Part shown: piece by piece, positions 25,216-39,779 of the stretch | How the letters are laid out: each line of letters begins with the position of its first letter | How positions within the stretch are numbered: the stretch's first letter is position 1 | Assembly: GCF_000379625.1 (NCBI RefSeq) | Contig: NZ_KB903246.1 | Coordinates: forward strand, 124,001-188,000 | Direction: 5' to 3' | Length of the DNA stretch: 64,000 nucleotides | From: Actinomycetospora chiangmaiensis DSM 45062 | GTDB lineage: Bacteria > Actinomycetota > Actinomycetes > Mycobacteriales > Pseudonocardiaceae | Program-made: the position numbers and the translations under genes | Notes under the pieces: generated by a model | Database searches by the model: none | What the model was told of the DNA's origin: nothing | Seen by the model: only the letters and a program-made list of their open reading frames with translations

Positions 25216-25335
25216 CCCCCACGTGGAACAAGCTGGGCCCCGGGAGTCGAACCGAATCCGACGGTAGTCCGCGTCGAGTTGTGCCGCACCGACAAAAAGC
25301 CTTGTTCGACTTGATCGGGAGGGTCAAGACTTGTC
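25216..25335. promoter_or_regulatory. Divergent control region of pucR and the hopanoid operon
   Basis: The only obvious structure is CTTGATCGGGAGGGTCAAG near 25308-25326, an inverted repeat of CTTGA and TCAAG that may be an operator; GGGAGGG within it may also be the hpnC ribosome site. No clear TANNNT -10 is visible for hpnC. Confidence 0.4.
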
Positions 25336-26256
25336 GTGTCCGCCACAAGCACCATCGGACCCATGCCCGCAGGCCCCTCGGCCCCCACCGGTCCGGCCAC
25401 CCGGCTCGCGCAGGCCGAGGGCGCCGAGAACTTCCCGGTGGCCCTGCGGGTGCTCCCCGCCGCACGCCGCGCCGAGCTGCGTGCGGTCTACGCCGTGGTG
25501 CGCACCGTCGACGACGTCGGCGACGAGGGCGACGCCGCCCCGGCCGACCGGCTGGCCGCCCTCGACGCGCTCGACGCGGACGTGCGCCGGGTCTTCGCCG
25601 GGGAACCGGCCCACCACCCGGTGGTCGCCGCCCTCGCCCCGCACGTCGCCCGCCTGCCCGAGGCGCCCTTCCACGACCTGGTGGCCGCGAACCGGCAGGA
25701 CCAGCACGTCACCGCGTACGCCACCCACGACGAGCTCCTCGCCTCCTGCCGGCTCTCCGCGGTGCCGATCGGCCGGCTCGTCCTCGCCGTCTTCGCGGTC
25801 CCGACGACGCCGTCCGTGCTGCGGGCCTCCGACGCCGTCTGCACCGCGTTGCAGCTCCTCGAACACCTCGCCGACGTGGGCGAGGACCGGCGCCGCGGCC
25901 GGATCTACCTGCCCGCCGACGCGATGACGGCCGCCGGCGTCACCCCCGCCGACCTCGACGCCCCCGTCGCCGCGGACCCGCTGCGCCGCCTCGTCCTCGC
26001 CCGGACGGCGGAGGCGCAGGAGCTCCTGACGGCGGGCGACCCGCTCGTCGCCCACCTGCACGGACCCGCCCGGCTCGCCGTCGCGGGCTACGCCGCGGGC
26101 GGGCACGCCGCGGCCGACGCCCTGCGCCGCACCGGCGGCGACGTCCTGGGCCGGACCGCCCGGACCCGTCGTCGGGACGTCGCCCGTCACCTGCTGCGCC
26201 TGCTCGTCACCCGTGCACGGGCCACCCGTCCCGCCCAGGCCGAGGAGCCCCGATGA
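25336..26256 (+). CDS. hpnC: Hydroxysqualene synthesis protein HpnC
   Basis: 306 residues from GTG 25336; ATG 25363 is the alternative and would remove nine residues. Squalene/phytoene synthase fold: [20 protein letters not shown], the first aspartate-rich stretch [12 protein letters not shown], and [20 protein letters not shown] as the second. In bacteria HpnC, HpnD and HpnE replace squalene synthase: HpnD makes presqualene diphosphate, HpnC converts it to hydroxysqualene, and HpnE makes squalene. It is the first gene of a seven-gene operon with overlapping or nearly abutting junctions and overlaps hpnD by ATGA. Confidence 0.9.
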
Positions 26257-27170
26257 GCGTCCCGACCACGACTCCCGCCGACGCGTACGCGGCGTGCGAG
26301 CGGATCACCCGCACCGAGGCCCGCAACTTCCACTACGGCATCCGGCTGCTCCCACCGCCGCGCCGCGCGGCGCTGTCGGCCGTCTACGCGCTGGCCCGCC
26401 GCATCGACGACATCGGCGACGGACCGGGCGCCGCCGCGCCGAAGCAGGCCGCCCTCGAGGACCTCCGCCTGCGGATCCGGCGCCTGCCCGACGAGGCGGG
26501 CGACGACCCCGTGCTCGTCGCCGTCGCCCACGCCGTGCGGCGCTTCCCCATCCCCCTCGACGCGTTCGACGAGCTCGTAGACGGCGTGGCGGCCGACGTC
26601 GCCGCCGACGACGCCGTCACGACGACGGGTGTCCCCGCGCGGCCGTACCGGACCTTCGACGACCTGCTCGGCTACTGCCGCTGCGTGGCCGGCTCGGTCG
26701 GGCGGCTCTGCCTCGGGGTGTTCGGCACCCGCGCCGGGGTGCCCGTGCAGGACGCCGCACCCCTGGCCGACACCCTCGGCCTCGCCCTGCAGCAGACGAA
26801 CATCCTGCGCGACGTCCGGGAGGACCTCGGCAACGGACGGATCTACCTGCCCGCCGAGGAGCTCGACCGGGCCGGCGTCACGCTCGCCCTGCGGCCCGAC
26901 GGTGTCCTCGACGACCCGGACGGCGCCCTCGCCGACCTCCTGCGCGACGCCGCCGTCCGGGCCCGGGGCTTCTACGCCGAGGGCCTGCGGCTGGTGCCGA
27001 TGCTCGACCGCCGCTCCGCCGCCTGCACCACCGCGATGTCGGGGATCTACCGGCGGCTGCTCGACGAGATCGCCGACGACCCGCGCAGGACCTACGACCG
27101 GCGGCTCTCGCTCTCGGGCCGACACAAGGCCCTGGTCGCGGTCCGGTCGCTCGCGGGCGCCGCCCGGTGA
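26253..27170 (+). CDS. hpnD: Presqualene diphosphate synthase HpnD
   Basis: 305 residues from ATG 26253. Condenses two farnesyl diphosphates to presqualene diphosphate. Motifs: [32 protein letters not shown] (first Asp-rich), [18 protein letters not shown], and [20 protein letters not shown] (second Asp-rich, NxxRDxxED). The family is close to phytoene synthases, but the adjacent hpnC, hpnE and shc fix its role. Downstream hpnE starts within its stop (GTGA). Confidence 0.92.
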
Positions 27171-28504
27171 GCCGGGTCGCGGTGCTCGGCGGCGGCCTCG
27201 CCGGGATCCGCGCCGCGCTCGACGCCGCCGACGCCGGCCACGCGGTGACACTCCTCGAACGCGCCCCCCGTCTGGGCGGCCTGGCGGGCTCCTTCGAGCG
27301 GGCGGGCCGGGGCGTCGACACCGGCCAGCACGTGTTCCTGCGCTGCTGCACCGCCTACCGCGCGCTGCTCGACCGGCTTGCCGTCACCGACGCCACCGTG
27401 CTGCAGGACCGCCTCGACGTCACCGTACTGCGCCCCGGCCGCGCCCCCGCCCGGCTGCGCCGCACCGGCGCCCCCGCGCCGCTCCACCTCGCGGCGAGCC
27501 TGCTGCGCTACGACCCCGTGCCGCGACGCGCGCGGGTCGCCCTCGGCCGGGCCGCCCTCGCCCTGCGCGCGGTCGACCCCGCCGACCCGGCGGCCGACCG
27601 CGAGACCTTCGGCGCCTGGCTGCGCCGTCACGGGCAGGGTGCCGTCGCGGTGCGCGGGGTGTGGGACCTGATCGGGCTCCCGACGCTGAACCTCCCGGCC
27701 GACGAGGCGTCGCTGGCCCTCGCCGCGGTCGTCTTCCGCGTCGGCCTGCTCGGCGCGGCCGACGCCGCGGACCTCGGCTGGGCGCGGGTCCCCCTCGGCG
27801 AGCTCCACGACGTCGCCGCCCGCCGGGCGCTCACGGGGGCCGGGGTGACGGTGGCGACGGGCACGCGGGTGGTCGCGGTCCACCGTGACCTCCGGGTCAC
27901 GACGACGGGGCGCGACGGCCGACGCGACACCCTCGCCGCCGACGCCGTGGTGTGCGCCCTGCCCCCGGAGATCGCGGCCGCCGTGCTGCCCGCGCCGCTC
28001 GCGACCCGGCTCGCCGTCGACGCCGCCGCCCTCGGGACGAGCCCGATCGTCGACGTCCACCTGCGCTACGACCGCACGGTCCTCGACGTGCCGTTCGCCG
28101 CGGGCCTGGACACGCCGGTGCAGTGGGTCTTCGACCGCACGCGCGAGGGCGACACCGGCCAGTACCTCGTGGTGTCGCTGTCCGCGGCCAACGCGTACCT
28201 GGCCCGGCCGAGCCGCGACCTCGTCGCGACCTTCACCGCCGCGCTCGCGTCCCTGCTCCCCCGGGCCCGCGCCGCGCGCGTGCTCGACGCCTTCGTCACC
28301 CGCGCCCCGCGGGCGACGTTCCGGCCGGTCCCGGGCACCGCCGCCCACCGACCGGCCGCGGCCACACCCCTGCCCGGCCTCGCGCTGGCCGGGGCGTGGA
28401 CCGACACCGGATGGCCCGCGACGATGGAGGGTGCCGTGCGCAGTGGTTCGACGGCGGCCGCACTGGTGGCGGCACCCCGGGCGGCGGACCGGGTGGCCGC
28501 GTGA
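27167..28504 (+). CDS. hpnE: Hydroxysqualene dehydroxylase HpnE
   Basis: 445 residues from GTG 27167. FAD-dependent amine oxidase-like fold: [20 protein letters not shown] (dinucleotide loop), [50 protein letters not shown], and the C-terminal [20 protein letters not shown]. It reduces hydroxysqualene to squalene, completing the HpnCDE route. It is related to phytoene desaturases, but the GQHVF region and the gene context support HpnE. Confidence 0.92.
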
Positions 28505-29550
28505 CGGCCGCGCCGGCGGTCGGGACCGCGATCGACGTCCCCGCGGTCCTCGCGCGGTGCCGGGAGCAGGTCGACCCGGGGCTGCGGGCCGCGATCGCCC
28601 GGCTCGACCCGACGAGCGCCGCCCGCAGCGGCTACCACCTGGGGTTCACCGACGCCGACGGCCGCCCCGGGCGCGGCGCCGGGAAGGCGCTGCGGCCCGC
28701 GGTCACGCTGCTCGCCGCGCAGGCCTGCGGGGCCGCGCCGGCCGACGCGGTGCCCGGGGCGGTCGCGGTGGAGCTGGTGCACGACTTCTCCCTGGTGCAC
28801 GACGACCTCATCGACGGCGACACCGAGCGCCGGCACCGGCCCACCGTGTGGGCGCTCTGGGGAGCCGCCGCCGCGGTCCTCACAGGGGACGCGCTGCTGG
28901 CGCTCGCCACCGAGGTGCTGCTCGAGGCCGACGGCGCCACGGCGGCCCTGCTCCTCGCCCGGACCGTCCGCGAGCTCGTCGGTGGCCAGGTCGCCGACGT
29001 CGCCTTCGTCGGGCGCGACGACGTCGGGGTCGCCGAGTGCCTCGCCATGGCGCACGGCAAGACCGGCACGCTCCTCGCCGCCGCGGCCGAGATCGGGGCC
29101 GTCCTCGCCGGCGCCCCGGCCGCGTCCCGCGCGGCGCTGCACGTCTTCGGGTCCGAGCTCGGCCTCGCGTTCCAGCTCGTCGACGACCTGCTCGGCATCT
29201 GGGGCGACCCGGCGGTCACCGGGAAGCCCGTGCTCTCCGACCTGCGGGAACGCAAGAAGTCGCTGCCCGTGACCTGGGCCCTGACCCACGGCGGCCGGGC
29301 CGGGCGGGAACTCGCGGCCTGGCTCGGGACGCCCGACGACGGCGACCGCGACCGCGACGGCGACGGCGACGAACCCGGCCTGCGCCGCGCCGCCGCGCTC
29401 GTCGAGGCGGGCGGCGGTCGCGCCTGGGCGGAGGCCGAGGCCGGGCGGCGGCTCCTCGCCGCGGAGGCCGCCCTCGCGGAGCTGCCCGACACCACGGCCC
29501 GGGCGGAGCTCGTCGCCCTCGGCCGCCACCTCGCGCACCGGGAGGCCTGA
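28501..29550 (+). CDS. Polyprenyl diphosphate synthase (farnesyl/geranylgeranyl type)
   Basis: 349 residues from GTG 28501. All-alpha trans-isoprenyl diphosphate synthase with the first aspartate motif DDLID at 101-105 and the second DDLLGIWGD at 228-236; GKALRPAVTLLAAQAC and GKPVLSDLRERKKSLPVTWA bind diphosphate. In this operon it should supply farnesyl diphosphate to HpnD. A hydrophilic insert of alternating Asp/Gly/Arg (GDRDRDGDGDE, about residues 281-291) comes from a short slipped repeat. Exact chain length needs assay. Confidence 0.88.
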   Translation: MTAAPAVGTAIDVPAVLARCREQVDPGLRAAIARLDPTSAARSGYHLGFTDADGRPGRGAGKALRPAVTLLAAQACGAAPADAVPGAVAVELVHDFSLVHDDLIDGDTERRHRPTVWALWGAAAAVLTGDALLALATEVLLEADGATAALLLARTVRELVGGQVADVAFVGRDDVGVAECLAMAHGKTGTLLAAAAEIGAVLAGAPAASRAALHVFGSELGLAFQLVDDLLGIWGDPAVTGKPVLSDLRERKKSLPVTWALTHGGRAGRELAAWLGTPDDGDRDRDGDGDEPGLRRAAALVEAGGGRAWAEAEAGRRLLAAEAALAELPDTTARAELVALGRHLAHREA

Positions 29551-31472
29551 TGACCGCCGTCACCGCACCCGCCGTCGGGACCCGGACCGCCGCCGACGCG
29601 CTCGTCGCCGGCGTGGCGCACCTGCGGGCGCGCCAGGACGCCGCCGGCTGGTGGAAGGGCGACCTCGACACCAACGTCACGATGGACGCCGAGGACCTCC
29701 TGCTGCGCCACGTGCTCGGGCTGGCGGACCCGGAACGCACCGCGGGCGCGGCGCGCTGGATCCGCTCGCAGCAACGGTCCGACGGGACCTGGGCGACCTT
29801 CCCCGGCGGCCCCGGCGACCTGTCCACCACCGTCGAGGCCTGGGTCGCGCTGCGCCTGGCCGGCGACCCGCCCGACACCCCGGCGATGCGCCGCGCCGCC
29901 GCCTTCGTCCGCGCGGAGGGCGGGGTGGAGCGGACCCGGGTGTTCACCCGCATCTGGCTCGCGCTGGTCGGGCTCTGGAGCTGGGACGACCTGCCCTCGA
30001 TGCCGCCCGAGCTGATCCACCTGCCGCGGTGGTTCCCCCTCAACGTCGCGGACTGGGCCTGCTGGGCCCGGCAGACGGTGGTGCCGCTGACGGTCGTCGC
30101 GACGCTGCGGCCGTCGACGCCGGTCGCGTTCGACGTCGAGGCGCTGCGGGTGCCGCAGCCGGCTCCGCGCCGCGTGCCGCTGCTGTCGTGGTCGGGCGTC
30201 TTCGCCCGGCTCGACGGGGTGCTGCACGCCTACGGCCGCGCCGCCCGGCGCGGACCGCTCGCCGTCGTCCGGCGCGGGGCGATGCGGCGTGCCGCCGAGT
30301 GGATCCTCGCCCGCCAGGAGGCCGACGGCGGGTGGGGCGGCATCCAGCCGCCGTGGGTGTACTCGGTGATGGCGCTGGTGCTGCTCGGCTACCCGCACGA
30401 CCACCCCGCCGTCGCCGCGGCGATCCGGGGCCTCGACGGCTTCACGCTGGTCACCGACTCCGACGAGGGGCCCGTGATCCGGCTGGAGGCCTGCCAGTCG
30501 CCGGTGTGGGACACCTGCCTCGCGGTGAACGCCCTGCTCGACGCCGGGGTGGCGCCGGACGATCCCGCCGTCGTCGCGGGGAGCACGTGGCTGCTCGACG
30601 AGCAGGTCACCGCCGACGGCGACTGGCAGGTCCGCCGGCCGACGCTGCCGTCCGGCGGCTGGGCCTTCGAGTTCGCCAACGACGTCTACCCCGACACCGA
30701 CGACACCGCCGAGGTGATCCTGGCGCTGCGCCGGACCGCGCACCCCGACCCCGCCCGGCTGCGCGCCGCGGTCGACCGGGGTCTCGACTGGCTCGTCGGG
30801 ATGGCGAGCGCCGACGGCGGGTGGGCCGCGTTCGACGCCGACAACGTCGGGACCCTCGTGACGAAGCTGCCGTTCTGCGACTTCGGCGAGGTGATCGACC
30901 CGCCGTCGGCGGACGTCACCGCGCACGTCGTCGAGGCGCTCGCCGCCGAGGGCCGCGACGCCACGGCCGGGGTCCGGTGGCTGCTCGAGCACCAGGAGGC
31001 CGACGGGTCCTGGTTCGGGCGGTGGGGGGCGAACCACCTCTACGGCACGGGCGGGGTGGTGCCCGCGCTCGTCGCCGCCGGGGTCGACCCGTCGTCGGGA
31101 CCGGTCCGCCGCGCCGTGCGCTGGCTGGCCGAGCACCAGAACGACGACGGCGGCTGGGGCGAGGACCTGCGCTCCTACCGGGACCCGGCCTGGATCGGCC
31201 GGGGGACGTCGACCCCGTCGCAGACGGCGTGGGCGCTGCTGGCGCTCCTCGCGGCGGGCGAGCGCGGACCGGTCGCCGAGCGGGGCGTCGCGTGGCTCGT
31301 CACGCACCAGCGGCCCGACGGCGGGTGGGACGAGGACCGGTTCACCGGCACCGGGTTCCCCGGCGACTTCTACATCGCCTACCACCTCTACCGGGTCGTG
31401 TTCCCGGTGGCGGCGCTGGGTCGGTGGGAGACGCAGCGGAGCGGAGCTCGACCCGGCGGGGAGCAGGGATGA
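29550..31472 (+). CDS. shc: Squalene-hopene cyclase
   Basis: 640 residues from ATG 29550, the usual length. Class II terpene cyclase: catalytic acid motif DTDD at 382-385 and QW repeats such as QEADGGWGGIQPPWVYSVMA, QNDDGGWGEDLRSY and QRPDGGWDEDRFTGTGFPGD. It cyclises squalene to hopene/hopanol at the membrane. Upstream genes supply squalene; downstream hpnH acts on the product. It carries both 13-mer forms nearby, the exact copy at 31088 and the variant at 29568. Confidence 0.95.
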   Translation: MTAVTAPAVGTRTAADALVAGVAHLRARQDAAGWWKGDLDTNVTMDAEDLLLRHVLGLADPERTAGAARWIRSQQRSDGTWATFPGGPGDLSTTVEAWVALRLAGDPPDTPAMRRAAAFVRAEGGVERTRVFTRIWLALVGLWSWDDLPSMPPELIHLPRWFPLNVADWACWARQTVVPLTVVATLRPSTPVAFDVEALRVPQPAPRRVPLLSWSGVFARLDGVLHAYGRAARRGPLAVVRRGAMRRAAEWILARQEADGGWGGIQPPWVYSVMALVLLGYPHDHPAVAAAIRGLDGFTLVTDSDEGPVIRLEACQSPVWDTCLAVNALLDAGVAPDDPAVVAGSTWLLDEQVTADGDWQVRRPTLPSGGWAFEFANDVYPDTDDTAEVILALRRTAHPDPARLRAAVDRGLDWLVGMASADGGWAAFDADNVGTLVTKLPFCDFGEVIDPPSADVTAHVVEALAAEGRDATAGVRWLLEHQEADGSWFGRWGANHLYGTGGVVPALVAAGVDPSSGPVRRAVRWLAEHQNDDGGWGEDLRSYRDPAWIGRGTSTPSQTAWALLALLAAGERGPVAERGVAWLVTHQRPDGGWDEDRFTGTGFPGDFYIAYHLYRVVFPVAALGRWETQRSGARPGGEQG

Positions 31473-32992
31473 TCATGACACCGCTGACCGTCGAGCGTTG
31501 GGCCGTCCCGGGTGCGCGCCGCTCCGGCGCCGGGCCGCGGCGTGCCGCCCGCACGGCCGCGGCGGTGGGCGACCGACCGCGACTGGTCGCCGGCGCCGGC
31601 GGCGCGCTCGTCGGCGGGATCGCGCCGGGCGACCTCGTCGTGGCCTCCGAGGTCCGGGGTCCCGACGGCGCGTCGGTGGCACTCCCGACGGCGCCGGTGC
31701 TCGCGGCGGCGCTGCGGGCGACGGGGTTGACCGTGCACGTGGGGCCGGTCGTGTCGGCCGACCACGTCGTGACCGGGGCGGAGCGCGCGCGCCTGTCGTC
31801 CGGGTCGGCACCGGACGTCAGCGGTGGCACACGGCTGCCACCCGTCGTCAGCGGTGGGCCACCGCTGACCGGCGCCCCCGCCGTCGCCGTCGACACCGAG
31901 TCGTCGTGGCTGGTGTCAGGCACCGCGCCGTCCGCGGTGGTGCGCGCGATCGTCGACACACCCGACCACCCGCTGCTGCGTCCGGGGACGGTGCGGCGGG
32001 GTCTCACGGCGCTGCGGTCCCTGCGCCGGGCCGCGCCGGTGCTGCGCGCCTGGTGCGACGCCACGGGCGAGCGGGAGGTGCTGCTCGCCGCGCCGCGGTC
32101 GTTCTGCGCCGGCGTGGACCGGGCGATCGCCACCGTCGAGCGGGCGCTCGACCGCCACGGCGCCCCGGTCTACGTGCGGCGCCAGATCGTCCACAACGAC
32201 CACGTCGTCGCCGAGCTCGAGCGCCGGGGGGCCGTGTTCGTCCGGGAGGCCGACGAGGTCCCGACGGGCGCGGTGCTGGTGCTCGCCGCGCACGGGGTCG
32301 CGCCGGCGGTGCGGCACACCGCGGCCGAGCGTCGGCTGCGGGTGGTGGACGCGACCTGCCCGCTCGTCACGAAGGTCCACGCCGGGGTCCGCCGCCACGC
32401 CCACCGGGGCGCCACCGTCCTGCTCATCGGCCACGCCGGACACGAGGAGGTGGAGGGCACCGTCGGCGAGGCCCCCGACGACGTCGTCGTGGTCGGCAGC
32501 GTCGCCGAGGCCGAGACCGTGGCGGTCCGTGACCCGGCCGCGGTCGCGACCGCGGTGCAGACCACGCTCGCCGTCGACGAGGCCGAGGCGATCACCGCCG
32601 TGCTGCGCCGCCGCTTCCCCGCGCTCGCCGAGCCCCGCACCGCCGACATCTGCTACGCGACGACGAACCGCCAGGACGCGGTGCGGGCGGTGGCCGCCGA
32701 GGCGGACCGGCTCGTCGTCGTGGGCTCGCCCCACTCGTCGAACTCGGTGCGGCTGGCCGAGGTCGGCGCCCGCGCCGGCGTCCCCGCCGTCCGCATCGAC
32801 CACGCCGCGGAGCTGGACCTCTCCTGGCTCGCCGGCGCCCGCCGCGTCGCCGTCACCGCCGGGGCCTCCGCCCCGGAGCACCTGGTCGACGACGTCGTCG
32901 CCGTCCTGGGCGGGCTCGGCCCCGTCACCGTCACCCCCCGGTCGACCACGACCGAGGACGTCCGCTTCACCCTCCCCCAGGAAGTGAGCTGA
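31469..32992 (+). CDS. Fusion of an HpnG-like nucleosidase domain with IspH (HMBPP reductase)
   Basis: 507 residues from ATG 31469 (ATG 31475 is the alternative). The C-terminal 300 residues are IspH, the [4Fe-4S] reductase making IPP and DMAPP: cluster cysteines C213 (SFCAGVD), C297 (DATCPLVTK) and C395 (DICYATTNRQD), with AHGVAP, GHAGHEEVEGT and SPHSSNS. Residues about 35-150 resemble nucleoside phosphorylases of the HpnG group (GGALVGGIAPGDLVVASEV and AVAVDTESSWLV, compare VDMES), but that domain looks shortened at its N-terminus. HpnG removes adenine from adenosylhopane, the product of HpnH, the next gene. Residues about 115-134 are encoded by palindromic repeat DNA (31811-31869). Confidence 0.8.
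   Translation: MIMTPLTVERWAVPGARRSGAGPRRAARTAAAVGDRPRLVAGAGGALVGGIAPGDLVVASEVRGPDGASVALPTAPVLAAALRATGLTVHVGPVVSADHVVTGAERARLSSGSAPDVSGGTRLPPVVSGGPPLTGAPAVAVDTESSWLVSGTAPSAVVRAIVDTPDHPLLRPGTVRRGLTALRSLRRAAPVLRAWCDATGEREVLLAAPRSFCAGVDRAIATVERALDRHGAPVYVRRQIVHNDHVVAELERRGAVFVREADEVPTGAVLVLAAHGVAPAVRHTAAERRLRVVDATCPLVTKVHAGVRRHAHRGATVLLIGHAGHEEVEGTVGEAPDDVVVVGSVAEAETVAVRDPAAVATAVQTTLAVDEAEAITAVLRRRFPALAEPRTADICYATTNRQDAVRAVAAEADRLVVVGSPHSSNSVRLAEVGARAGVPAVRIDHAAELDLSWLAGARRVAVTAGASAPEHLVDDVVAVLGGLGPVTVTPRSTTTEDVRFTLPQEVS
31811..31869. repeat. Palindromic repeat inside the HpnG-like/IspH coding sequence
   Basis: 31811-31837 is identical over 27 bases to the intergenic hairpin at 8052-8078. Next to it, 31847-31857 and 31859-31869 form an 11-bp perfect inverted repeat around one base (GTCAGCGGTGG arm). 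The reading frame stays open. Confidence 0.88.
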
Positions 32993-32994
32993 CC

Positions 32995-34008
32995 GTGGGA
33001 TTCCCCCTCCGGCAGAGCCTCCGGCTCGGCACATACCTCACGGCGCAGAAGCTGCGCCGCCGCGAGAAGTTCCCGATCCTCGTCGAGCTCGAGCCGCTGT
33101 TCGCCTGCAACCTCAAGTGCGCGGGCTGCGGGAAGATCGCCCAGCCGGCCTCCCTGCTCAAGCAGCGGATGCCGGTCGAGCAGGCCGTCGGCGCGATCGT
33201 CGAGGCCGGCGCGCCGATGGTCTCGATCGCGGGCGGCGAGCCGCTGATGCACCCGCAGATCGACGAGATCGTGACGCAGCTGCTCGATCGGAAGAAGATC
33301 GTCTTCCTGTGCACCAACGCGCTGCTGCTGCCGAAGCACCTGCACCGCTTCACACCGCACCGCGACTTCGCGTGGATGGTCCACATCGACGGGCTGCGCG
33401 AGCGCCACGACGCGTCCGTGCGCAAGGCGGGTGGCTTCGACGCGGCGGTCGACGCGATCCGGCAGGCCCAGGCGGCGGGCTTCAAGGTCTACACGAACAC
33501 GACGTTCTTCGACACCGACACCCCGCAGGACGTCATCGACGTCCTCGACTACCTCAACGACGACCTCGGCGTCGACAACATGCAGATCTCCCCCGCGTAC
33601 GCCTACGAGCGGGCCCCCGACCAGGAGCACTGGCTCGGCGTCGACCAGACCCGCGAGCTGTTCCGCAAGGCCTTCGCCGACGGCCGCCGGAAGAAGTGGC
33701 GCCTCAACCACTCGCCGCTGTTCCTCGACTTCCTCGAGGGGCGCACGGACTTCGCCTGCACGGCGTGGGCCATCCCGTCGTACTCCCTGCTCGGGTGGCA
33801 GAAGCCCTGCTACCTGCTCGACGACGGGTACGTGGCGACCTACCGGGAGCTGGTCGAGGAGACCGACTGGTCGGCCTACGGGCGCGGGCGCAACGAGAAA
33901 TGTGAGAACTGCATGGCCCATTGCGGGTACGAACCCTCCGCGGTGTTCGCCACGATGGGTTCGCTGCGGGAGTCGATCCGCGCCGCGATGGACACGGTGG
34001 GTAGTTGA
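32995..34008 (+). CDS. hpnH: Adenosyl-hopene transferase, radical SAM protein HpnH
   Basis: 337 residues from GTG 32995. Radical SAM CxxxCxxC at C38, C42 and C45 (LFACNLKCAGCGK), SIAGGEPLMHPQIDEI, CTNALLLPKHLHRF, HIDGLRERHDASVRKAGGFD and the C-terminal Cys-rich CENCMAHCGYEPSAVF. It adds the 5'-deoxyadenosyl radical to hopene, giving adenosylhopane, the base of C35 hopanoids. It closes the operon, two bases after the fusion gene, and is followed by a hairpin. Confidence 0.95.
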   Translation: MGFPLRQSLRLGTYLTAQKLRRREKFPILVELEPLFACNLKCAGCGKIAQPASLLKQRMPVEQAVGAIVEAGAPMVSIAGGEPLMHPQIDEIVTQLLDRKKIVFLCTNALLLPKHLHRFTPHRDFAWMVHIDGLRERHDASVRKAGGFDAAVDAIRQAQAAGFKVYTNTTFFDTDTPQDVIDVLDYLNDDLGVDNMQISPAYAYERAPDQEHWLGVDQTRELFRKAFADGRRKKWRLNHSPLFLDFLEGRTDFACTAWAIPSYSLLGWQKPCYLLDDGYVATYRELVEETDWSAYGRGRNEKCENCMAHCGYEPSAVFATMGSLRESIRAAMDTVGS

Positions 34009-34051: not shown

Positions 34052-34113
34052 GCGTCATCGCGCCGTCTACCGTGAGGCGGGTCCGGTCCCCGGTCGAGAG
34101 GTCGTGCACCCCC

Positions 34114-34770
34114 ATGGCGCACCCCCACGTGACGATCCACCTGCCGCACTGGCGGGAGATGGCCCGGCACGCGCTCGTCCCGCTGCTGGAATCGACGGTG
34201 ATCCCGCTGCTGCTCTTCGCGGTGCTGCTGCGCACCGCGGGGTTCGACGCCGGCCTGTGGGCGGCGCTCTCCTGGTCGGGCCTCGCGATCACGGCGCGGC
34301 TCGTCCGCCGTCGTGCGCTGCCCGCCATCCTGCTGCTGTCCACCGCGATCCTGGTCGTGCGCACCGTCGTGGGTCTCTGGACGGGCAGTGCCCTGCTCTA
34401 CTTCCTGCAGCCCTCGGCGCAGAACTTCCTGTTCGCGGCCGCGCTGCTGGTGACGCTGGTCGGCGGCGGACGCCCGTTGCTGGCGCGGCTCGCGGAGGAC
34501 TTCGTCGCGTTCCCGGAGGCGCTGACGTCGCGCCCGAAGGTCCAGCAGTTCTTCCGCCGGGTGTCGCTGCTGTGGGCGGCGGTGTTCGTCATCAACGGCA
34601 TCACCACGGTGACCACGCTCGCGCTGTCCACCGTCGAGGAGTACCTCGTGGTGTCCACGGCGGGGTCCTGGTCGGTGGTCGCGGCCGGGATCGCGATCTC
34701 GCTGTGGTGGTTCCGGTCCTCCCTCGCGGGCGAAGGCGTGCGCCTGCGGCTGGGCCCCGCCGCCGCCTAG
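34114..34770 (+). CDS. VC0807-like integral membrane protein
   Basis: 218 residues from ATG 34114. About six hydrophobic helices (for example HALVPLLESTVIPLLLFAVL, LPAILLLSTAILVVRTVVGL, FLFAAALLVTLVGG and VSLLWAAVFVINGITTVTTL) with a cytosolic loop of about 40 residues containing RPLLARLAEDFVAFPEALTS. This is the pattern of the uncharacterised VC0807 family, related to intracellular septation A-like proteins. Its stop overlaps the stop of the convergent glycosyltransferase by 3 bases. The link to hopanoids or glycolipids is positional only. Confidence 0.7.
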   Translation: MAHPHVTIHLPHWREMARHALVPLLESTVIPLLLFAVLLRTAGFDAGLWAALSWSGLAITARLVRRRALPAILLLSTAILVVRTVVGLWTGSALLYFLQPSAQNFLFAAALLVTLVGGGRPLLARLAEDFVAFPEALTSRPKVQQFFRRVSLLWAAVFVINGITTVTTLALSTVEEYLVVSTAGSWSVVAAGIAISLWWFRSSLAGEGVRLRLGPAAA

Positions 34771-35885
34771 CCGCGCGCGGCCAGGGCGGTCAGCTCGGCG
34801 TCGAGGTCACGAGCGGAGAACGTCCGCGCCGCCCGGAAGAGCTCGTCCCGACGACGGGGGTCGGCGGCCAGGGCCGCGACCTCACGGGCCACGTCCGCGA
34901 CGGTCGGGCAGGCGACGGCGAGCCCGGCGTCGGCCAGCGCGCGGGCGGCCGCCCGCCCGTGCCCGGGCACCGGTGTGGCGAACAGGACCGGCCGACCGAC
35001 CGCCAGTGCCTCGCTCGCGATCATCCCGCCGCCGGTGGTCAGCACGACGTCGGCCGCGGCCATCTCGACGGGCACTGTGTCCGTCCAGCCGAGGACCCGG
35101 AGCCGGGGGTCGCCCCGGGCGTCGAGCCGGCGGCGGAGCGCGTCGTTGCGCCCGGCGAGCACGACGGCGTGCGCACCCGCCGTCAGGACCGCGTCGGTGA
35201 CCGCCTCGAGCGACCCGAAGCCCAGCGATCCGCCGGTGACGAGGACCGTGATCCCCCCTCGTGGCAGCAAAGCGTCGTTGCTGTCACCCGGTGGCAGCAA
35301 CGACACTCCGCTGTCACGAAGCGACGGCGTGAACCGCGGATCGACCGCCGGCGGGACGACCCGGACCTCCCGGGCCCCGAGCCGACGGGCGTCGGCCGCG
35401 GCGGCGTCGAGCATCGTCCAGGTCTCGTCGACGTCGGGCCAGATCCAGAAGGGGTGCACGGCGGGGTCGGTGACGACGGCGACGGTGCGGGCGGCCAGCT
35501 CGCCGCGGCGGCGCAGCAGCGCGAGCCCGCCGGTGGTGACGGGGTAGGTGCACACGACGAGGTCCGGGTCGTGGGCGCGCAGCACCGGGCGGAGGGCTCG
35601 CGCGGTCGCCGGGGCCCCGAGCCGCTGGAAGAACGCGGCGACGGGGGGCAGCCGGCCGAGCACGTCGTAGGCGAGGCCGTACAGCCCGGGCGCCGACCGC
35701 ATCACCACGCGGTAGGCCGCCGTCAGCAGCGCCGTGCGGCGCGGGCCGCCCGCGACCGTCTCCACCTCGGTGACGACGGCGGCCGGCCACAGCGCCCGCA
35801 TCCGCGTCGCGAGCGCCCGGGCGGCCGCGACGTGACCCTCGCCGACCGGCGCCGACAGCACCAGGACCCGCCGTGGTGACCGCAC
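34767..35885 (-). CDS. MGDG-synthase-like GT-B glycosyltransferase
   Basis: 372 residues from GTG 35885; TAGCGT on this strand ends 6 bases before it, so the mRNA is probably leaderless. The N-terminal lipid-acceptor domain starts RRVLVLSAPVGEGHVAAARA (G-E-G-H as in monogalactosyldiacylglycerol synthases). The C-terminal nucleotide-sugar domain has VTGGSLGFGSLEAV and TTGGGMIASEALAVGRPVLF followed by PVPGHG. It probably glycosylates a membrane lipid on the cytosolic face. Residues about 190-210 are encoded by repeat DNA (35261-35317). The paralogue at 35873 starts inside its 5' end. Confidence 0.82.
   Translation of the reverse strand: MRSPRRVLVLSAPVGEGHVAAARALATRMRALWPAAVVTEVETVAGGPRRTALLTAAYRVVMRSAPGLYGLAYDVLGRLPPVAAFFQRLGAPATARALRPVLRAHDPDLVVCTYPVTTGGLALLRRRGELAARTVAVVTDPAVHPFWIWPDVDETWTMLDAAAADARRLGAREVRVVPPAVDPRFTPSLRDSGVSLLPPGDSNDALLPRGGITVLVTGGSLGFGSLEAVTDAVLTAGAHAVVLAGRNDALRRRLDARGDPRLRVLGWTDTVPVEMAAADVVLTTGGGMIASEALAVGRPVLFATPVPGHGRAAARALADAGLAVACPTVADVAREVAALAADPRRRDELFRAARTFSARDLDAELTALAARG
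35261..35317. repeat. Two palindromic repeat units inside the glycosyltransferase gene
   Basis: 35261-35287 and 35291-35317 are 27-base units with common ends GTGGCAGCAA and GCTGTCAC. The first matches the intergenic copy at 2552-2577 (minus strand) with one mismatch. They add about 20 residues between the two Rossmann domains without breaking the frame. Confidence 0.82.
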
Positions 35886-38164
35886 GACCGCACGCTAACG
35901 ACCCGACGCGCGTCCTGGTCCTCACCGGGTCGGTCGGCGCGGGCCACGACGCGGCGGCCGCGGCCGTCGCGGAGCGGGTCGCCGCACGGTGGCCGGACGC
36001 GTCCGCGCCCGTGGTGGACGTGCTCGGCGGCTCCGCCACGTCGGAACGCATCTACGCGGCGTGCGTCCGCACCCTGCCGTGGCTGTACGCGCTGCACCAC
36101 TGGCTGCTGGGGCACGTCCCGGTGTTCCGCGCCGGCACCCGGGCCGTGCTGGGTCGGCTGCACGCCCGGGCCGTCGCCGCCGCGCTCCGCGACCACGCCC
36201 CCGACCTCGTCGTCACGACCGTTCCCGAGGGCGTCCAGGCCCTGGCCCACCTGCGACGACGCGGGCGGGTGGCCGCCCCCGTCGTCGTGGTCCTCGCCGA
36301 CCCCGCCCCGCACCCGCTGTGGTGCGACGCCGACCTGGACCTGCACCTGGTGACGACCCCGGAGGCCGCCCGCCGCGTCGCGCGGCACGCCCCGGGGGCG
36401 CGGGTCGGGCTCGCGGAGGTCCCGGTCGCCGCGGCCCGGCGGGGCGTCCCCGCCGTCGGCGGACACGCGGGACGACGGGTGTTCGTGACGACGGGCTCGC
36501 TCGGCTTCGGCGACCTGCCGGCGATCGTCGCGGCGGTGCGGGCGGCCGGCGCCGAGGTCGTCACCGCCCACGCCGACCCGACCGTCCGTGGCCGCCTCGC
36601 CGGGCCGGGCGTCGAGGTCCACGCCTGGATCGACGACCCCGCGGCCGTCCTCGGGGCCGTGGACGCCGTCGTCACCACCGGCGGCGGCGCGAGCTGCTTC
36701 GAGGCGCTGGCCGCGGGCGTCCCGCTGCTCGTGGTCGACCCGGTCCCCGGGCACGGCCGCGCCAACGCCCTCGTCCTCGCCCGGGCCGGCCTGGCCCGGT
36801 ACTGCCGGACCACCGCCGAGCTCACCACGGCGCTGCGCGGGGATCTCCCCGCCGCCCACGTCGGGACGGCGCCCGACCTCGCGGCGGCGATCGCCCCCGT
36901 CGTCGGGACCGCCCGGGCGCCGCTGCGGGCGGAGGACGCCCTGTTCCTCGACGCCGCGACCGGGACGGTGCCCCAGGTGCTCGGGGCGCGGATCGTGGTG
37001 GCGGCGGGCCCCGAGGTGGACTGGCCCGCGCTGCTCGCCGGCCGGGTGCGGGACCGGGCCGCCGGCCTGGACCTGCTGGCCCGGCGCCTCGTCGGCCGGA
37101 CGTGGGTGCCGGTCGTGCCGGACCCGGCCGACCACGTCGTGCCGACCCGGGCGACCGATCCCGACGACCTCGCCACCGAGGTGCTCACCGCCCCGGTCGA
37201 CCCGCGCGGTGTCGGCTGGCGGCTCGCCGCGGCGACCACCGGCGGGGAGACCACGATCGTCGCCGCCGTGCACCACGCGCTCGGCGACGGTCTGGCCGTC
37301 ACCGACGCGCTCGTCCGGCTGCTCACCGACGAGTCGGCAGCCCTCCCCACCAGCGCCCGGACCGGCGCCGGTGACCCGCACCCACCCGCCGTCGGGAGCC
37401 TCCGGGGCGTCGTCGCGCTGGCGTCGCGGGGGTTCGCCGGGAGCCGCCCGTTCCCCGCGGGGAACGCCCGGGGCGTGCACCACGTCGGCCGGGTGTGGGA
37501 CGCCGCGACGATCCGGCGGACCGCCCGGGCGCACGGGACGTCGACGACCGTGGTCGTCCTGACGGTCCTCGCGGAGGCGTTGTCCGGCACCGGGGCCCCG
37601 ACGATCCGGGCGATGGTGCCGCTGACGACCCGGCTCCGGGGCGCCGCGTGGTCCGCCGCCGCGGGTAACCGGACGGCCGCCGTCGCGATCGACCTGCCGA
37701 CCGCACCCTTGTCCCCCGCAGACCGCCTCGCCCGGGTCGCGTCGACGCTCGAGGCCGCCCGGCGCTCCGGCCAGGCCGACGGGGCGGTCGCGGTGCTGGC
37801 CGTGCTCGGCCGCCTGCCGGCCGGCGTGCAGCACGCCTTCGCCCGCCTGACCTACCGGTCGGCGTTCTTCCACCTGCTGACGTCGGTGATGCCGGGCGTC
37901 CGGCGCCCGCTGCACGTCGCGGGCGGCCGGATCCGGCAGGTGGTGCCGATCCTGCCGCTCGCCCCGGGGGTGGGGCTGGCGTTCGGGGCGATCGCGTGGG
38001 CCGACACGCTCGGGGTGGGCATCACCCTCGACGACGCCGTGGTCGACCCGGCCCTCGACGTCCCCGCCCGGGTGGGCGCGGCGCTGGCACGCCTCTGCGG
38101 CCCGGCGGCCCGGCGCGGGACGGAGGATCGTGGGCTCGCGCCGACGGGAAGGAGCGCGCGATGA
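35873..38164 (+). CDS. Fusion of MGDG-synthase-like glycosyltransferase and WS/DGAT-type acyltransferase
   Basis: 763 residues from GTG 35873 (or GTG 35876); no later start keeps the first strand. Residues 1-330: GT-B fold, LTGSVGAGHDAAAAAVAERV, FVTTGSLGFGDLPAIVAAVR, TTGGGASCFEALAAGVPLLV and DPVPGHGRAN. Residues about 345-750: wax ester synthase/DGAT-like domain beginning LRAEDALFLDAATGTVPQVL, with catalytic HHALGDG at 467-473. The fusion suggests one enzyme that glycosylates a lipid and acylates it, or acts on the product of its head-to-head paralogue. The first 13 bases overlap that gene antisense. It is coupled by ATGA to a DMT permease. Confidence 0.85.
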   Translation: MVTARPHANDPTRVLVLTGSVGAGHDAAAAAVAERVAARWPDASAPVVDVLGGSATSERIYAACVRTLPWLYALHHWLLGHVPVFRAGTRAVLGRLHARAVAAALRDHAPDLVVTTVPEGVQALAHLRRRGRVAAPVVVVLADPAPHPLWCDADLDLHLVTTPEAARRVARHAPGARVGLAEVPVAAARRGVPAVGGHAGRRVFVTTGSLGFGDLPAIVAAVRAAGAEVVTAHADPTVRGRLAGPGVEVHAWIDDPAAVLGAVDAVVTTGGGASCFEALAAGVPLLVVDPVPGHGRANALVLARAGLARYCRTTAELTTALRGDLPAAHVGTAPDLAAAIAPVVGTARAPLRAEDALFLDAATGTVPQVLGARIVVAAGPEVDWPALLAGRVRDRAAGLDLLARRLVGRTWVPVVPDPADHVVPTRATDPDDLATEVLTAPVDPRGVGWRLAAATTGGETTIVAAVHHALGDGLAVTDALVRLLTDESAALPTSARTGAGDPHPPAVGSLRGVVALASRGFAGSRPFPAGNARGVHHVGRVWDAATIRRTARAHGTSTTVVVLTVLAEALSGTGAPTIRAMVPLTTRLRGAAWSAAAGNRTAAVAIDLPTAPLSPADRLARVASTLEAARRSGQADGAVAVLAVLGRLPAGVQHAFARLTYRSAFFHLLTSVMPGVRRPLHVAGGRIRQVVPILPLAPGVGLAFGAIAWADTLGVGITLDDAVVDPALDVPARVGAALARLCGPAARRGTEDRGLAPTGRSAR

Positions 38165-39087
38165 CCGACACGGTGTCCCTGCTCGTGGCCGTCCCCGCGG
38201 CGATCCTCGGGGCGGCCGGATTCGGGATGTCCAGCGCCGCCCAGCAGCGCGCCACCCACGAGGTGCCGGTCGCACCGACCCTGTCGCCCCGCCTGCTCGT
38301 CGAGCTGGCCCGGCACCCGTGGTGGCTGCTCGGACTCGGCACGACGGTGCTCGCGCTGGCCATGCAGCTCGTGGCGTTGGCGTTCGGCCCGCTGACGATC
38401 GTGCAGCCGCTGCTCGTCACCGGCTGCGTGTTCGCGGGCGTCTTCGCCGCGCTGCTGCACCACCGCGCCCCCGACCGGTGGGTGGTCGGCGGCGGCCTGC
38501 TCACCGCCGCGGGCCTCGCCGGTTTCCTCCTGCTGGCCCGGCCGGTCGCGGCCGGCCCGAACGCCGAGCACCTCGACGTCACCGACAACCCGACCTTCCT
38601 CGTCACGCTGGTCGTGGTGCTCGCCGGGTGCCTGGTGTGGGCGGGGGTCTCGACCCATCCGAGCCGTGTCCTCGCCCTCGCCCTCGGCACCGGGATCCTC
38701 TTCGGCGTCACCGCCGCACTCATGAAGGCGGTGACCACAGCCGTGCGCGGCGGCGCCGGGGAGCTGTTCACCACGCCCGCGCTCTACGCCGCCTGTGTGA
38801 TCGGACCCATGGGCTTCCTGCTCAGCCAGAACACCTTCCAGCAGGGCCGGCTGGTGTCGCCGTCGGTCGCGGTGATCACCACCGCCGACCCGATCGTCGC
38901 GGTCTTCGCCGGCATCGCGTGGCTCGGCGAGTCGATCGACACGTCCTGGCCGCTGCTCGTCGGCCAGATCGTGTCCGGCGTGGTCGTGCTGGCCGGGATC
39001 GCGTCGGTGACCCTGCGCAGCACGATCCTGCTCCGACGCGGCACCGCCCCCGAGGACGCCGCCGCCTGGGAGGCCCGCGACCCGTGA
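38161..39087 (+). CDS. DMT-superfamily permease
   Basis: 308 residues from ATG 38161, in an ATGA overlap with the fusion enzyme. Nine or ten hydrophobic helices, including AVPAAILGAAGFGMSSAAQQ, WLLGLGTTVLALAMQLVALA, FGPLTIVQPLLVTGCVFAGV and SVAVITTADPIVAVFAGIAW with the EamA-like LGESID end. It resembles the Mg2+-transporter NIPA-like or EamA branch of DMT proteins. In this operon it could move a sugar-lipid precursor or flip a lipid; that is inference. Confidence 0.78.
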   Translation: MTDTVSLLVAVPAAILGAAGFGMSSAAQQRATHEVPVAPTLSPRLLVELARHPWWLLGLGTTVLALAMQLVALAFGPLTIVQPLLVTGCVFAGVFAALLHHRAPDRWVVGGGLLTAAGLAGFLLLARPVAAGPNAEHLDVTDNPTFLVTLVVVLAGCLVWAGVSTHPSRVLALALGTGILFGVTAALMKAVTTAVRGGAGELFTTPALYAACVIGPMGFLLSQNTFQQGRLVSPSVAVITTADPIVAVFAGIAWLGESIDTSWPLLVGQIVSGVVVLAGIASVTLRSTILLRRGTAPEDAAAWEARDP

Positions 39088-39779
39088 CGATCCTCGTGAC
39101 CGGCGCCTCGTCGGGCATCGGCGCGGCCGTCGCCCGTCGGCTCGCGGGCCGACCGCTGGTACTCGTCGGCCGCGACGCCGCCCGCCTGGACGCCACGGCG
39201 ACCGCGACCGGCGGCACCCCGGTCCGCGCCGACCTCACGAACGCTTCGGGCCGCGCCGCCGTCTCCGCCGCCTGCGCCGGCCCCGTCGAGCTCGCGGTGC
39301 ACGCCGCCGGGATCGGCGCCCACGGCCCCTTCCCGACGACGGGTCCTGCCGGACCCCTGCTCGCCGCCGACCTGGAGGCGCCGATCGAGCTGACGCGCGC
39401 GCTGTGGCCGGGACTGGTCGCCGCCCGGGGGCACGTGGTGTTCGTGGCGTCGATCGCGGCGCTCGGGGTCGCGGGCGAGACGACGTACTCGGCGGCGAAG
39501 GCGGGGCTGCGGACGTTCGCGGACGCGCTGCGCCTGGAGTCCCGCGACGTCGGCGTGACCACCGTGCTGCCCGGGGCGGTCGACACCCCGTTCCTGGCCC
39601 GGCGCGGCTACGACCGCCGCGTCCCCCGGCCGGTGTCGGCGGACGCCGTGGCCGACGCCCTGCTACGCGGGGTGGCCCGGCGTCGGGCGGAGGTGTTCGT
39701 CCCGCGCTGGCTCCGCGCCGCGTCCGTGGTGCAGGGCGCGGCGCCGGGGCTCTACCGCCGGTGCGCGCCGCGCTCGTGA
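39084..39779 (+). CDS. Short-chain dehydrogenase/reductase
   Basis: 231 residues from GTG 39084, overlapping the permease stop by 4 bases. Classical SDR: TILVTGASSGIGAAVARRLA (NAD(P) loop), VHAAGIGAHGPF (NAG equivalent), FVASIAALGVAGETTYSAAK with the catalytic Ser and Y-x3-K, and LPGAVDTPFLARRGYDR. The Arg in LVLVGRDAARL suggests NADP(H). It is the last gene of the glycosyltransferase-acyltransferase operon; the substrate may be a lipid alcohol or ketone. Confidence 0.85.
   Translation: MTILVTGASSGIGAAVARRLAGRPLVLVGRDAARLDATATATGGTPVRADLTNASGRAAVSAACAGPVELAVHAAGIGAHGPFPTTGPAGPLLAADLEAPIELTRALWPGLVAARGHVVFVASIAALGVAGETTYSAAKAGLRTFADALRLESRDVGVTTVLPGAVDTPFLARRGYDRRVPRPVSADAVADALLRGVARRRAEVFVPRWLRAASVVQGAAPGLYRRCAPRS

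Follow-up and report, generated by a model that had tools for sequence, protein, structure and literature searches.

A glycosyltransferase-acyltransferase fusion accompanying hopanoid biosynthesis genes in Actinomycetospora and other actinobacteria

The window analyzed here is a stretch of 64,000 nucleotides from the genome of Actinomycetospora chiangmaiensis DSM 45062 (contig NZ_KB903246.1, positions 124,001 to 188,000), and one of its genes encodes a glycosyltransferase (GT) fused in a single frame to a WS/DGAT-type acyltransferase. The fusion lies close to genes of hopanoid synthesis and is accompanied by a stand-alone GT (GT1), a DMT-family permease (DMT) and a short-chain dehydrogenase/reductase (SDR) (Table 1). 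The fusion was found to co-occur almost completely with squalene-hopene cyclase (SHC) and to be, as a rule, physically linked to hopanoid genes, and a cassette for the glycosylation, acylation and transport of hopanoids is therefore well supported by genomics. We assign a probability of roughly 0.58 to the reading that these genes form the late decorating part of the actinobacterial hopanoid pathway, acting in the steps proposed below.

Co-occurrence of the fusion with hopanoid genes

Among 61 genomes (that of the window and 60 relatives), the full fusion was found in 13 and a true SHC, taken as E < 1e-100, in 18, with weak matches only in ten more genomes; all 13 fell within the 18 (hypergeometric 1.3e-9, kinship ignored). 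Within the genus, SHC was carried by 5 of 18 genomes, and the fusion by those same 5. SHC, DMT and SDR lay within about 10 kb in all 12 loci from relatives, and more than one gene order was observed.

Named genomes were scanned with the fusion alignment, using two patterns that both lie in the GT domain and are blind to hopanoids. The best 80 of 194 relatives were taken, 70 of which run into the acyltransferase and ten of which are GT alone. SHC, HpnH or HpnC was present in the flank (up to 10 kb) at 61 of the 70 fusion loci, and eight of the nine other fusion genomes have SHC elsewhere (E ≤ 1.1e-131); all ten GT-only genomes carry SHC as well. The fusion loci include Actinomycetospora, Pseudonocardia, Saccharopolyspora, Actinopolyspora, Prauserella, Kutzneria, Amycolatopsis, Micromonospora, Arthrobacter terrae and Sinomonas humi, and the linkage to SHC spans Pseudonocardiaceae, Actinopolysporaceae, Micromonosporaceae and Micrococcaceae, in rearranged orders. 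The hopanoid neighborhood of the fusion is not due to chance. The initial annotation had suggested a pathway to an acylated glyco-hopanoid or another glycolipid and had named, as the contrary pattern, homologues residing mostly in genomes without hopanoid genes; instead, SHC co-occurrence is near-complete and linkage is the rule. The hopanoid side of that suggestion is thus upheld by genomics, and the product itself is a prediction from the genes.

The rule that every SHC-bearing actinobacterium has the fusion was rejected. In a class sample of 296 genomes, 72 of which are SHC-positive at E ≤ 1e-60, only 2 of the 72 showed the fusion, indicating that it is a lineage trait. The survey of this sample scored three candidates per genome for the fusion and nine for the SDR (see below), and relatives may be missed.

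These distributions also bear on a different product. The cassette could make an acylated glyco-diacylglycerol or similar glycolipid, and adjoin the hopanoid genes because the products of both sets shape one membrane. UgtP and plant MGD1, the nearest solved relatives of the GTs, transfer sugars to diacylglycerol; among NCBIfam models, GT1 scored best against diglucosyl diacylglycerol synthase, well under the cut-off; and paralogous GT genes with a nearby DMT are found elsewhere in the window genome (L033, L035). Nevertheless, the linkage to SHC holds over the four families and rearranged orders listed above, and the genomes of the genus that carry the fusion are the very ones that carry SHC, so we regard a diacylglycerol-based product as improbable.

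Domains, relatives and alternative partners of the fusion

MGDG_synth and the GT28 C-terminal domain were above the Pfam cut-off in both GT1 and the fusion, and the sequence profile of the fusion matched UgtP and MGD1 over the GT half together with the WS/DGATs 6chj and 7nxg. An AlphaFold model of the fusion (window plus 61 relatives) gave a pLDDT of 88.3 and a pTM of 0.80. Its top Foldseek matches in the PDB were the same two WS/DGATs (TMt 0.66-0.71), and the other PDB matches among the 50 listed were WS/DGATs and other acyltransferase or condensation-type enzymes. For the two domains of the initial annotation, the model points to a WS/DGAT fold and the sequence profile to UgtP and MGD1 for the GT half.

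The active-site motif of the acyltransferase is HHALGDG (residues 467-473). In 62 aligned rows, G22, G24, H25 and E277 of the GT and H467, H468, D472 and G473 of the acyltransferase were invariant. A chance open reading frame (ORF) is ruled out because the open fused frame recurs, with the same active-site residues, in 61 named relatives. The alignment omits seven loci in which the wrong frame had been picked, mostly noticed because that frame lacked the motif (L051, L064, L087, L097, L101, L105 and L108), and two cut by a contig end (L058 and L071). When these nine were rechecked, HHxxxDG was found in seven, L097 had LHAQADG, and L105 had only the GT part in the best alignments; HHxxxDG is thus present in 68 of the 70 named fusion loci. 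A scripted motif-spacing rule had failed for 10 of the 70. L097, from an Amnibacterium metagenome-assembled genome (MAG), is a full-length open fusion adjoining HpnH and SHC in which the first His of the motif is absent, and its acyltransferase activity is possibly changed or lost.

Judged by its sequence, the acyltransferase half is a divergent WS/DGAT relative and not an ordinary WS/DGAT. It matched TIGR02946 at 8.3e-28 and 97.5 bits, far below the cut-off of 310, and the N-terminal Pfam domain WS_DGAT_cat (PF03007) had no match to the fusion. In a tree of acyltransferase domains (29 of the 62 fusion domains and 13 others), all 29 sampled fusions formed one clade (100/99), sister to five PAP2-fused domains (99/97). 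We rejected the assignment to the ordinary WS/DGATs of this genome, as the tree places the fusion domain outside all eight of them.

PAP2-acyltransferase fusions lie by the hopanoid cluster in G057, G117 and G097 (in G057 Pfam recognized both domains, and in the other two they were assigned by similarity), and away from hopanoid genes in G296 and G369. A related acyltransferase joined to PAP2 and not to a GT at three hopanoid clusters would fit a scheme in which the acyltransferase esterifies bacteriohopanetetrol (BHT) itself while the GT forms a hopanoid glycoside of its own, both domains using one substrate in parallel. Acylated hopanoids occur in Frankia. Side chains bearing acyl groups are found in nature (PMC8537080). 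However, GT and acyltransferase share a single frame at almost every fusion locus, which favors action of the acyltransferase on the glycoside, and we consider the parallel scheme rather unlikely.

At the hopanoid clusters of G047, G060, G149, G199 and G352, a stand-alone GT and a DMT are found, and a NodB-type polysaccharide deacetylase lies beside each of these five GTs (tblastn). The stand-alone GTs of the deacetylase loci form a different clade from the fusion GTs. Of the deacetylases, two of these loci and one of an f31 locus were compared with Pfam, and all three matched PF01522; f31 and f30 are codes of families that are, by inference, Streptomyces-like and Frankia-like, respectively. 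In all four f31 loci examined (L158-L161), the GT, SDR, DMT and NodB-type deacetylase form a unit away from SHC. A tblastn search of the 80 loci L047-L126 gave no NodB-type deacetylase at E ≤ 1e-8. By this pattern, the GT, DMT and SDR set seems to be paired with either a deacetylase or an acyltransferase.

In a tree of GTs (31 of the 62 fusion GT domains and 38 other GTs), GT1 formed a separate clade (11 of 11 rows, 100/100), and a recent duplication giving rise to the GT pair was rejected on this ground. Among the loci examined, GT1 was found in Actinomycetospora, most Pseudonocardia and one more genome of the family. The head-to-head GT pair noted in the initial annotation is real in the window but not general, since the GT1 clade is confined to a few of the lineages examined. 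The fusion GTs were not one clade (six label changes), with Amycolatopsis stand-alone GTs and paralogues interspersed; the nesting of these stand-alone GTs among fusion GTs suggests that the Amycolatopsis lineage probably lost the fused acyltransferase. GT1 may add a second sugar. Elsewhere in the window genome, another divergent GT pair with DMT and SDR nearby was found on contig C13 (L033) and a GT with a NodB-type deacetylase on contig C17 (L036); these sets perhaps serve other glycolipids.

Distribution and candidate role of the SDR

The SDR of the window carries TGxxxGxG and YxxxK, the classical SDR motifs. When the 61 genomes were searched with it, 17 scored at least 110 bits and the next best 96 (a gap from 110.8 to 96.3). 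At 100 bits or more, it was found in 17 of 18 SHC-positive genomes versus none of 43 SHC-negative ones, and the sole SHC-positive genome lacking it, G041, is a fragmented draft. In the class sample, a score of at least 140 bits was reached in 44 of the 45 SHC-positive genomes outside f31, in 7 of the 27 SHC-positive f31 genomes and in 2 of the 224 SHC-negative genomes. Thirty-five of the 44 SDRs are on the SHC contig within 9 kb and nine on other contigs of drafts; in the seven f31 genomes the SDR is never beside SHC, lying on another contig or at a distance. Scores in the class sample show no gap, and a line at 137 bits would add G091 (SHC-negative) and G298 (f31, SHC-positive), the SDR of the latter (L163) falling outside the hopanoid SDR node of the tree.

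This tree contained 58 of 123 SDRs, and the sampled SDRs linked to hopanoid genes, from f31 units and from HpnO-bearing genomes grouped in one node (98/98, 41 rows) that excludes the other SDRs. The hopanoid label requires six changes, as f31 and HpnO-genome SDRs are inside the node. The single hopanoid-labeled SDR outside is a second SDR of L092; L043 dropped out, and L092 and L094 were mislabeled, the second SDR being the fusion-adjacent one.

The SDR is also found at hopanoid clusters without the fusion. Of 19 genomes, comprising the nine with an off-cluster fusion and the ten with GT alone, 17 have it: in 13 it shares a contig with SHC at a distance of no more than about 13 kb, in two (G061 and G066) it is with the fusion, about 22 and 48 kb from SHC, and in two (G075 and G079) it is on another contig. 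Where the fusion and SHC are apart and the SDR is present (seven fusion genomes), the SDR is by SHC in five. This placement, together with its presence at fusion-less clusters, suggests that the SDR is probably part of the core pathway rather than of the decoration. The initial annotation had counted it as the redox step of the cassette; its link to hopanoids holds, and its place within the pathway shifts.

The SDR was compared with the HpnO aminotransferase branch of Streptomyces. Both enzymes would act on ribosylhopane at the same step, the SDR by reduction to BHT and not by transamination. At E ≤ 1e-90, HpnO was found in all 27 SHC-positive f31 genomes, in G089, G124 and G189 (SHC-positive) and in G091, G109 and G137 (SHC-negative). 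At the thresholds used, every SHC-positive genome of the class sample except G159 has SDR, HpnO or both, and 3 of the 44 SDR-bearing SHC-positive genomes outside f31 also have HpnO. Strict exclusion was rejected, because both are present in G089, G124, G189 and seven f31 genomes (all SHC-positive) and in G109, G137 and G091 (137.8 bits); the distributions are largely, not strictly, complementary. In G091 (L176, contig C109) the SDR is directly beside HpnO and SHC was not found at E ≤ 1e-60, as was also the case for G109 (L175); such genomes may reflect either draft gaps or a hopanoid-independent use.

The enzyme that turns ribosylhopane into BHT is stated to be not established in a 2025 paper (PMC12583986), and the SDR is a candidate for it. 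SDRs catalyze many reactions, and this one could be another hopanoid enzyme, oxidizing or epimerizing the side chain or a sugar; it adjoins HpnO in G089, G124 and G091, so that the split between the two is not strict. Lineage products argue in the other direction. In f30, nifH was above cut-off in four of the seven genomes tested, which suggests Frankia-like bacteria, and in these four the SDR is present and HpnO unmatched at E ≤ 1e-90; in Frankia, BHT and its derivatives predominate in the vesicle envelopes (PMC4058466). The HpnO-bearing and mostly SDR-less f31 genomes are Streptomyces-like by inference, and S. coelicolor makes aminobacteriohopanetriol (PMC8537080). A role other than BHT formation is a serious possibility, although not the one we expect. 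Literature titles and abstract beginnings gave no link of a WS/DGAT or of this SDR to hopanoids; subscription papers lay mostly outside this reach, which leaves such absence unproven. Each of four f30 genomes (L148, L150, L154 and L156) carries another copy of SHC, which has no neighbor among the other hopanoid genes searched for.

Gene layout and proposed pathway

In the window, HpnC, the HpnD position and HpnE are upstream of SHC, and the IspH ORF and HpnH follow in order between SHC and the GT cassette. The initial annotation placed the cassette beside complete hopanoid synthesis; HpnC, HpnE, SHC, IspH and HpnH were recognized by curated models scoring above their cut-offs and the HpnD position by Pfam. 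For HpnG, the PF01048 phosphorylase domain had no Pfam match in the IspH ORF, and the N-terminus of this ORF gave a weak blastp match (7.6e-4) to the HpnG-like protein of L041. Taken with L041:2998-3876, this ORF seemingly joins the isoprenoid-precursor enzyme IspH to a possible HpnG-like side-chain enzyme, and the HpnG-like part stands alone, without IspH, at some other loci. The DUF3159/IspA-like membrane protein is often retained beside HpnH or the SDR across many loci.

The positions that the initial annotation gave for GT1, the fusion, the DMT, the SDR and the HHALGDG motif all proved correct, as did the 4-base overlaps of fusion with DMT (38161-38164) and of DMT with SDR (39084-39087). 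The start codons of the divergent GT1 and fusion genes overlap by 13 bases as called. In Actinomycetospora (window and L048-L050), the divergent GT starts abut or overlap as called, and the lack of intergenic DNA implies that promoters are inside coding sequence or that the starts are miscalled; the corresponding genes of Pseudonocardia (L052) may be separated by some 130 bases.

Table 1. Genes of the hopanoid cluster and adjoining cassette in the window, and PAP2 fusions at other loci
Feature	Position	Strand	Evidence
HpnC (squalene synthase half)	25336..26256	+	TIGR03464 5.6e-75, just above cut-off
Second squalene/phytoene synthase, HpnD position	26310..27170 (inside ORF 25281-27170)	+	PF00494 1e-65, residues 344-613 of ORF
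HpnE	27176..28504 (inside ORF 26213-28504)	+	TIGR03467 2.1e-116, residues 322-753, above cut-off
SHC	29559..31472 (inside ORF 27885-31472)	+	TIGR01507 1.7e-210, residues 559-1185, above cut-off
ORF ending in IspH (LytB), possible HpnG-like phosphorylase segment before	31469..32992	+	PF02401 8.9e-88, residues 204-480
HpnH, adenosylhopane synthase (radical SAM)	32995..34008	+	TIGR03470 1.8e-148, above cut-off
Membrane protein, DUF3159/IspA-like	34072..34770	+	PF11361 3.1e-6, below cut-off
GT1, stand-alone MGDG/UgtP-like GT	34767..35885	-	PF06925 MGDG_synth 8e-14; GT28_C; phmmer 9wde 1.7e-21, 4wyi 8.7e-10
Fusion, 763 aa: GT28-type GT (~1-330) and WS/DGAT-type acyltransferase (~350-745)	35873..38164	+	MGDG_synth 3.9e-9, GT28_C 1.9e-6, WS_DGAT_C (PF06974) 3e-15
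DMT-family permease, proposed flippase	38161..39087	+	NF038012 DMT_1 2.7e-26, above cut-off
SDR, candidate ribosylhopane reductase (BHT-forming)	39084..39779	+	PF00106 4.2e-24
PAP2-WS/DGAT fusions adjoining hopanoid clusters (second acyltransferase fusion type)	L041:11348-13336; L127:5960-7777; L128:11930-13885		

By the established chemistry of these families, HpnC, HpnD and HpnE together with SHC produce the hopene skeleton, to which HpnH attaches adenosine; ribosylhopane results from the action of an HpnG-like enzyme. The window genes would follow this course to ribosylhopane, with the HpnG-like step tentatively placed in the segment before IspH. The SDR would then reduce ribosylhopane to BHT. 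A sugar would be transferred onto the BHT polyol by the fused GT domain and, in this genus, by GT1 as well. The fused WS/DGAT-type domain would attach an acyl group to that sugar or to the side chain, the fused architecture may channel the glycoside to it, and the permease would move the acylated glyco-hopanoid across the membrane. In other actinobacteria, a stand-alone GT together with a NodB-type deacetylase, or the PAP2-acyltransferase fusion, would occupy the slot of the GT-acyltransferase fusion. Another conceivable product is a squalene-derived C30 carotenoid glycoside ester, formed from HpnCDE products before SHC; HpnCDE provide squalene, and the GT and acyltransferase resemble the finishing pair of staphyloxanthin. 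The cassette, however, follows SHC, HpnH and the SDR, which are not needed for carotenoids, and on this distribution of hopanoid genes the product is highly unlikely.

The proteobacterial HpnI, HpnK and HpnJ route leads to BHT cyclitol ether (PMC12583986). The proposed pathway resembles it in that a GT would put a sugar on BHT and a second enzyme would finish the head, and at the stand-alone-GT loci the deacetylase lies beside the GT as HpnK does beside HpnI. In contrast to that route, the GT here is MGDG/UgtP-like (MGDG_synth and GT28_C), the deacetylase is of NodB type (PF01522), and the finishing enzyme of the window is a fused acyltransferase. The MGDG/UgtP-like GT and NodB-type deacetylase families are not known to be related to HpnI and HpnK. 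Both GT proteins of the window match UgtP (processive diacylglycerol beta-glucosyltransferase, 9wde) and MGD1 (4wyi) by sequence, whereas the fused GT is joined to an acyltransferase and its predicted acceptor is a hopanoid polyol. The acyltransferase half shares the fold, HHxxxDG and the C-terminal domain with the WS/DGATs 6chj and 7nxg (AbWSD1) but differs from them as the C-terminal half of a fusion, as a clade apart and in its missing PF03007 match. Acylated glyco-hopanoids exist in nature as N-acylglucosaminyl BHT in Alicyclobacillus (PMC8537080), although this organism is a Firmicute, the linkage is an N-acyl amide, and the comparison is by product only.

Several points weigh against the assignment to late hopanoid decoration. 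Besides the diacylglycerol acceptors of UgtP and MGD1 and the presence of the fusion in only 2 of 72 SHC-positive genomes, 9 of the 70 named fusion loci do not adjoin hopanoid genes in the flank, the fusion-bearing MAG G063 (L099) shows only a weak SHC-like match (3e-21), L097 deviates at the motif, and L105 aligned best over its GT part only. As to the SDR, the lines at 100 and 140 bits were fixed after the scores had been seen, it is by the fusion and not by SHC in two of the seven genomes where these are apart, it coexists with HpnO in a few genomes and occurs without an SHC match in G109 and G137 as well as in G091 (137.8 bits), and G159 has neither enzyme at the thresholds used. In addition, a review lists BHT among the compounds reported from work on S. 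coelicolor (PMC10301674); if it is made there without this SDR, another route exists, which argues against a sole role for the enzyme. We still prefer the decoration reading. Its extension to an actinobacterial route of its own, from ribosylhopane to exported acylated glyco-hopanoids, with the SDR as BHT-forming reductase, an MGDG/UgtP-like GT and interchangeable finishing enzymes setting lineage-specific heads, is held tentatively, at somewhat less than even odds.

Hopanoids are the main membrane fossils of bacteria, and the step to BHT is the one reported as not established in the 2025 paper (PMC12583986). The question becomes directly testable through a single SDR that is small, conserved and clear in its pattern of presence, and the most valuable outcome is a testable candidate for the BHT step together with a set of interchangeable enzymes that finish the hopanoid head. 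A genetic explanation of acylated and glycosylated hopanoids could come from the fusion and its alternatives, as could a prediction of the genera that produce them; this would be of use in lipid biomarker work and in studying the membranes of Saccharopolyspora and other industrial actinomycetes.

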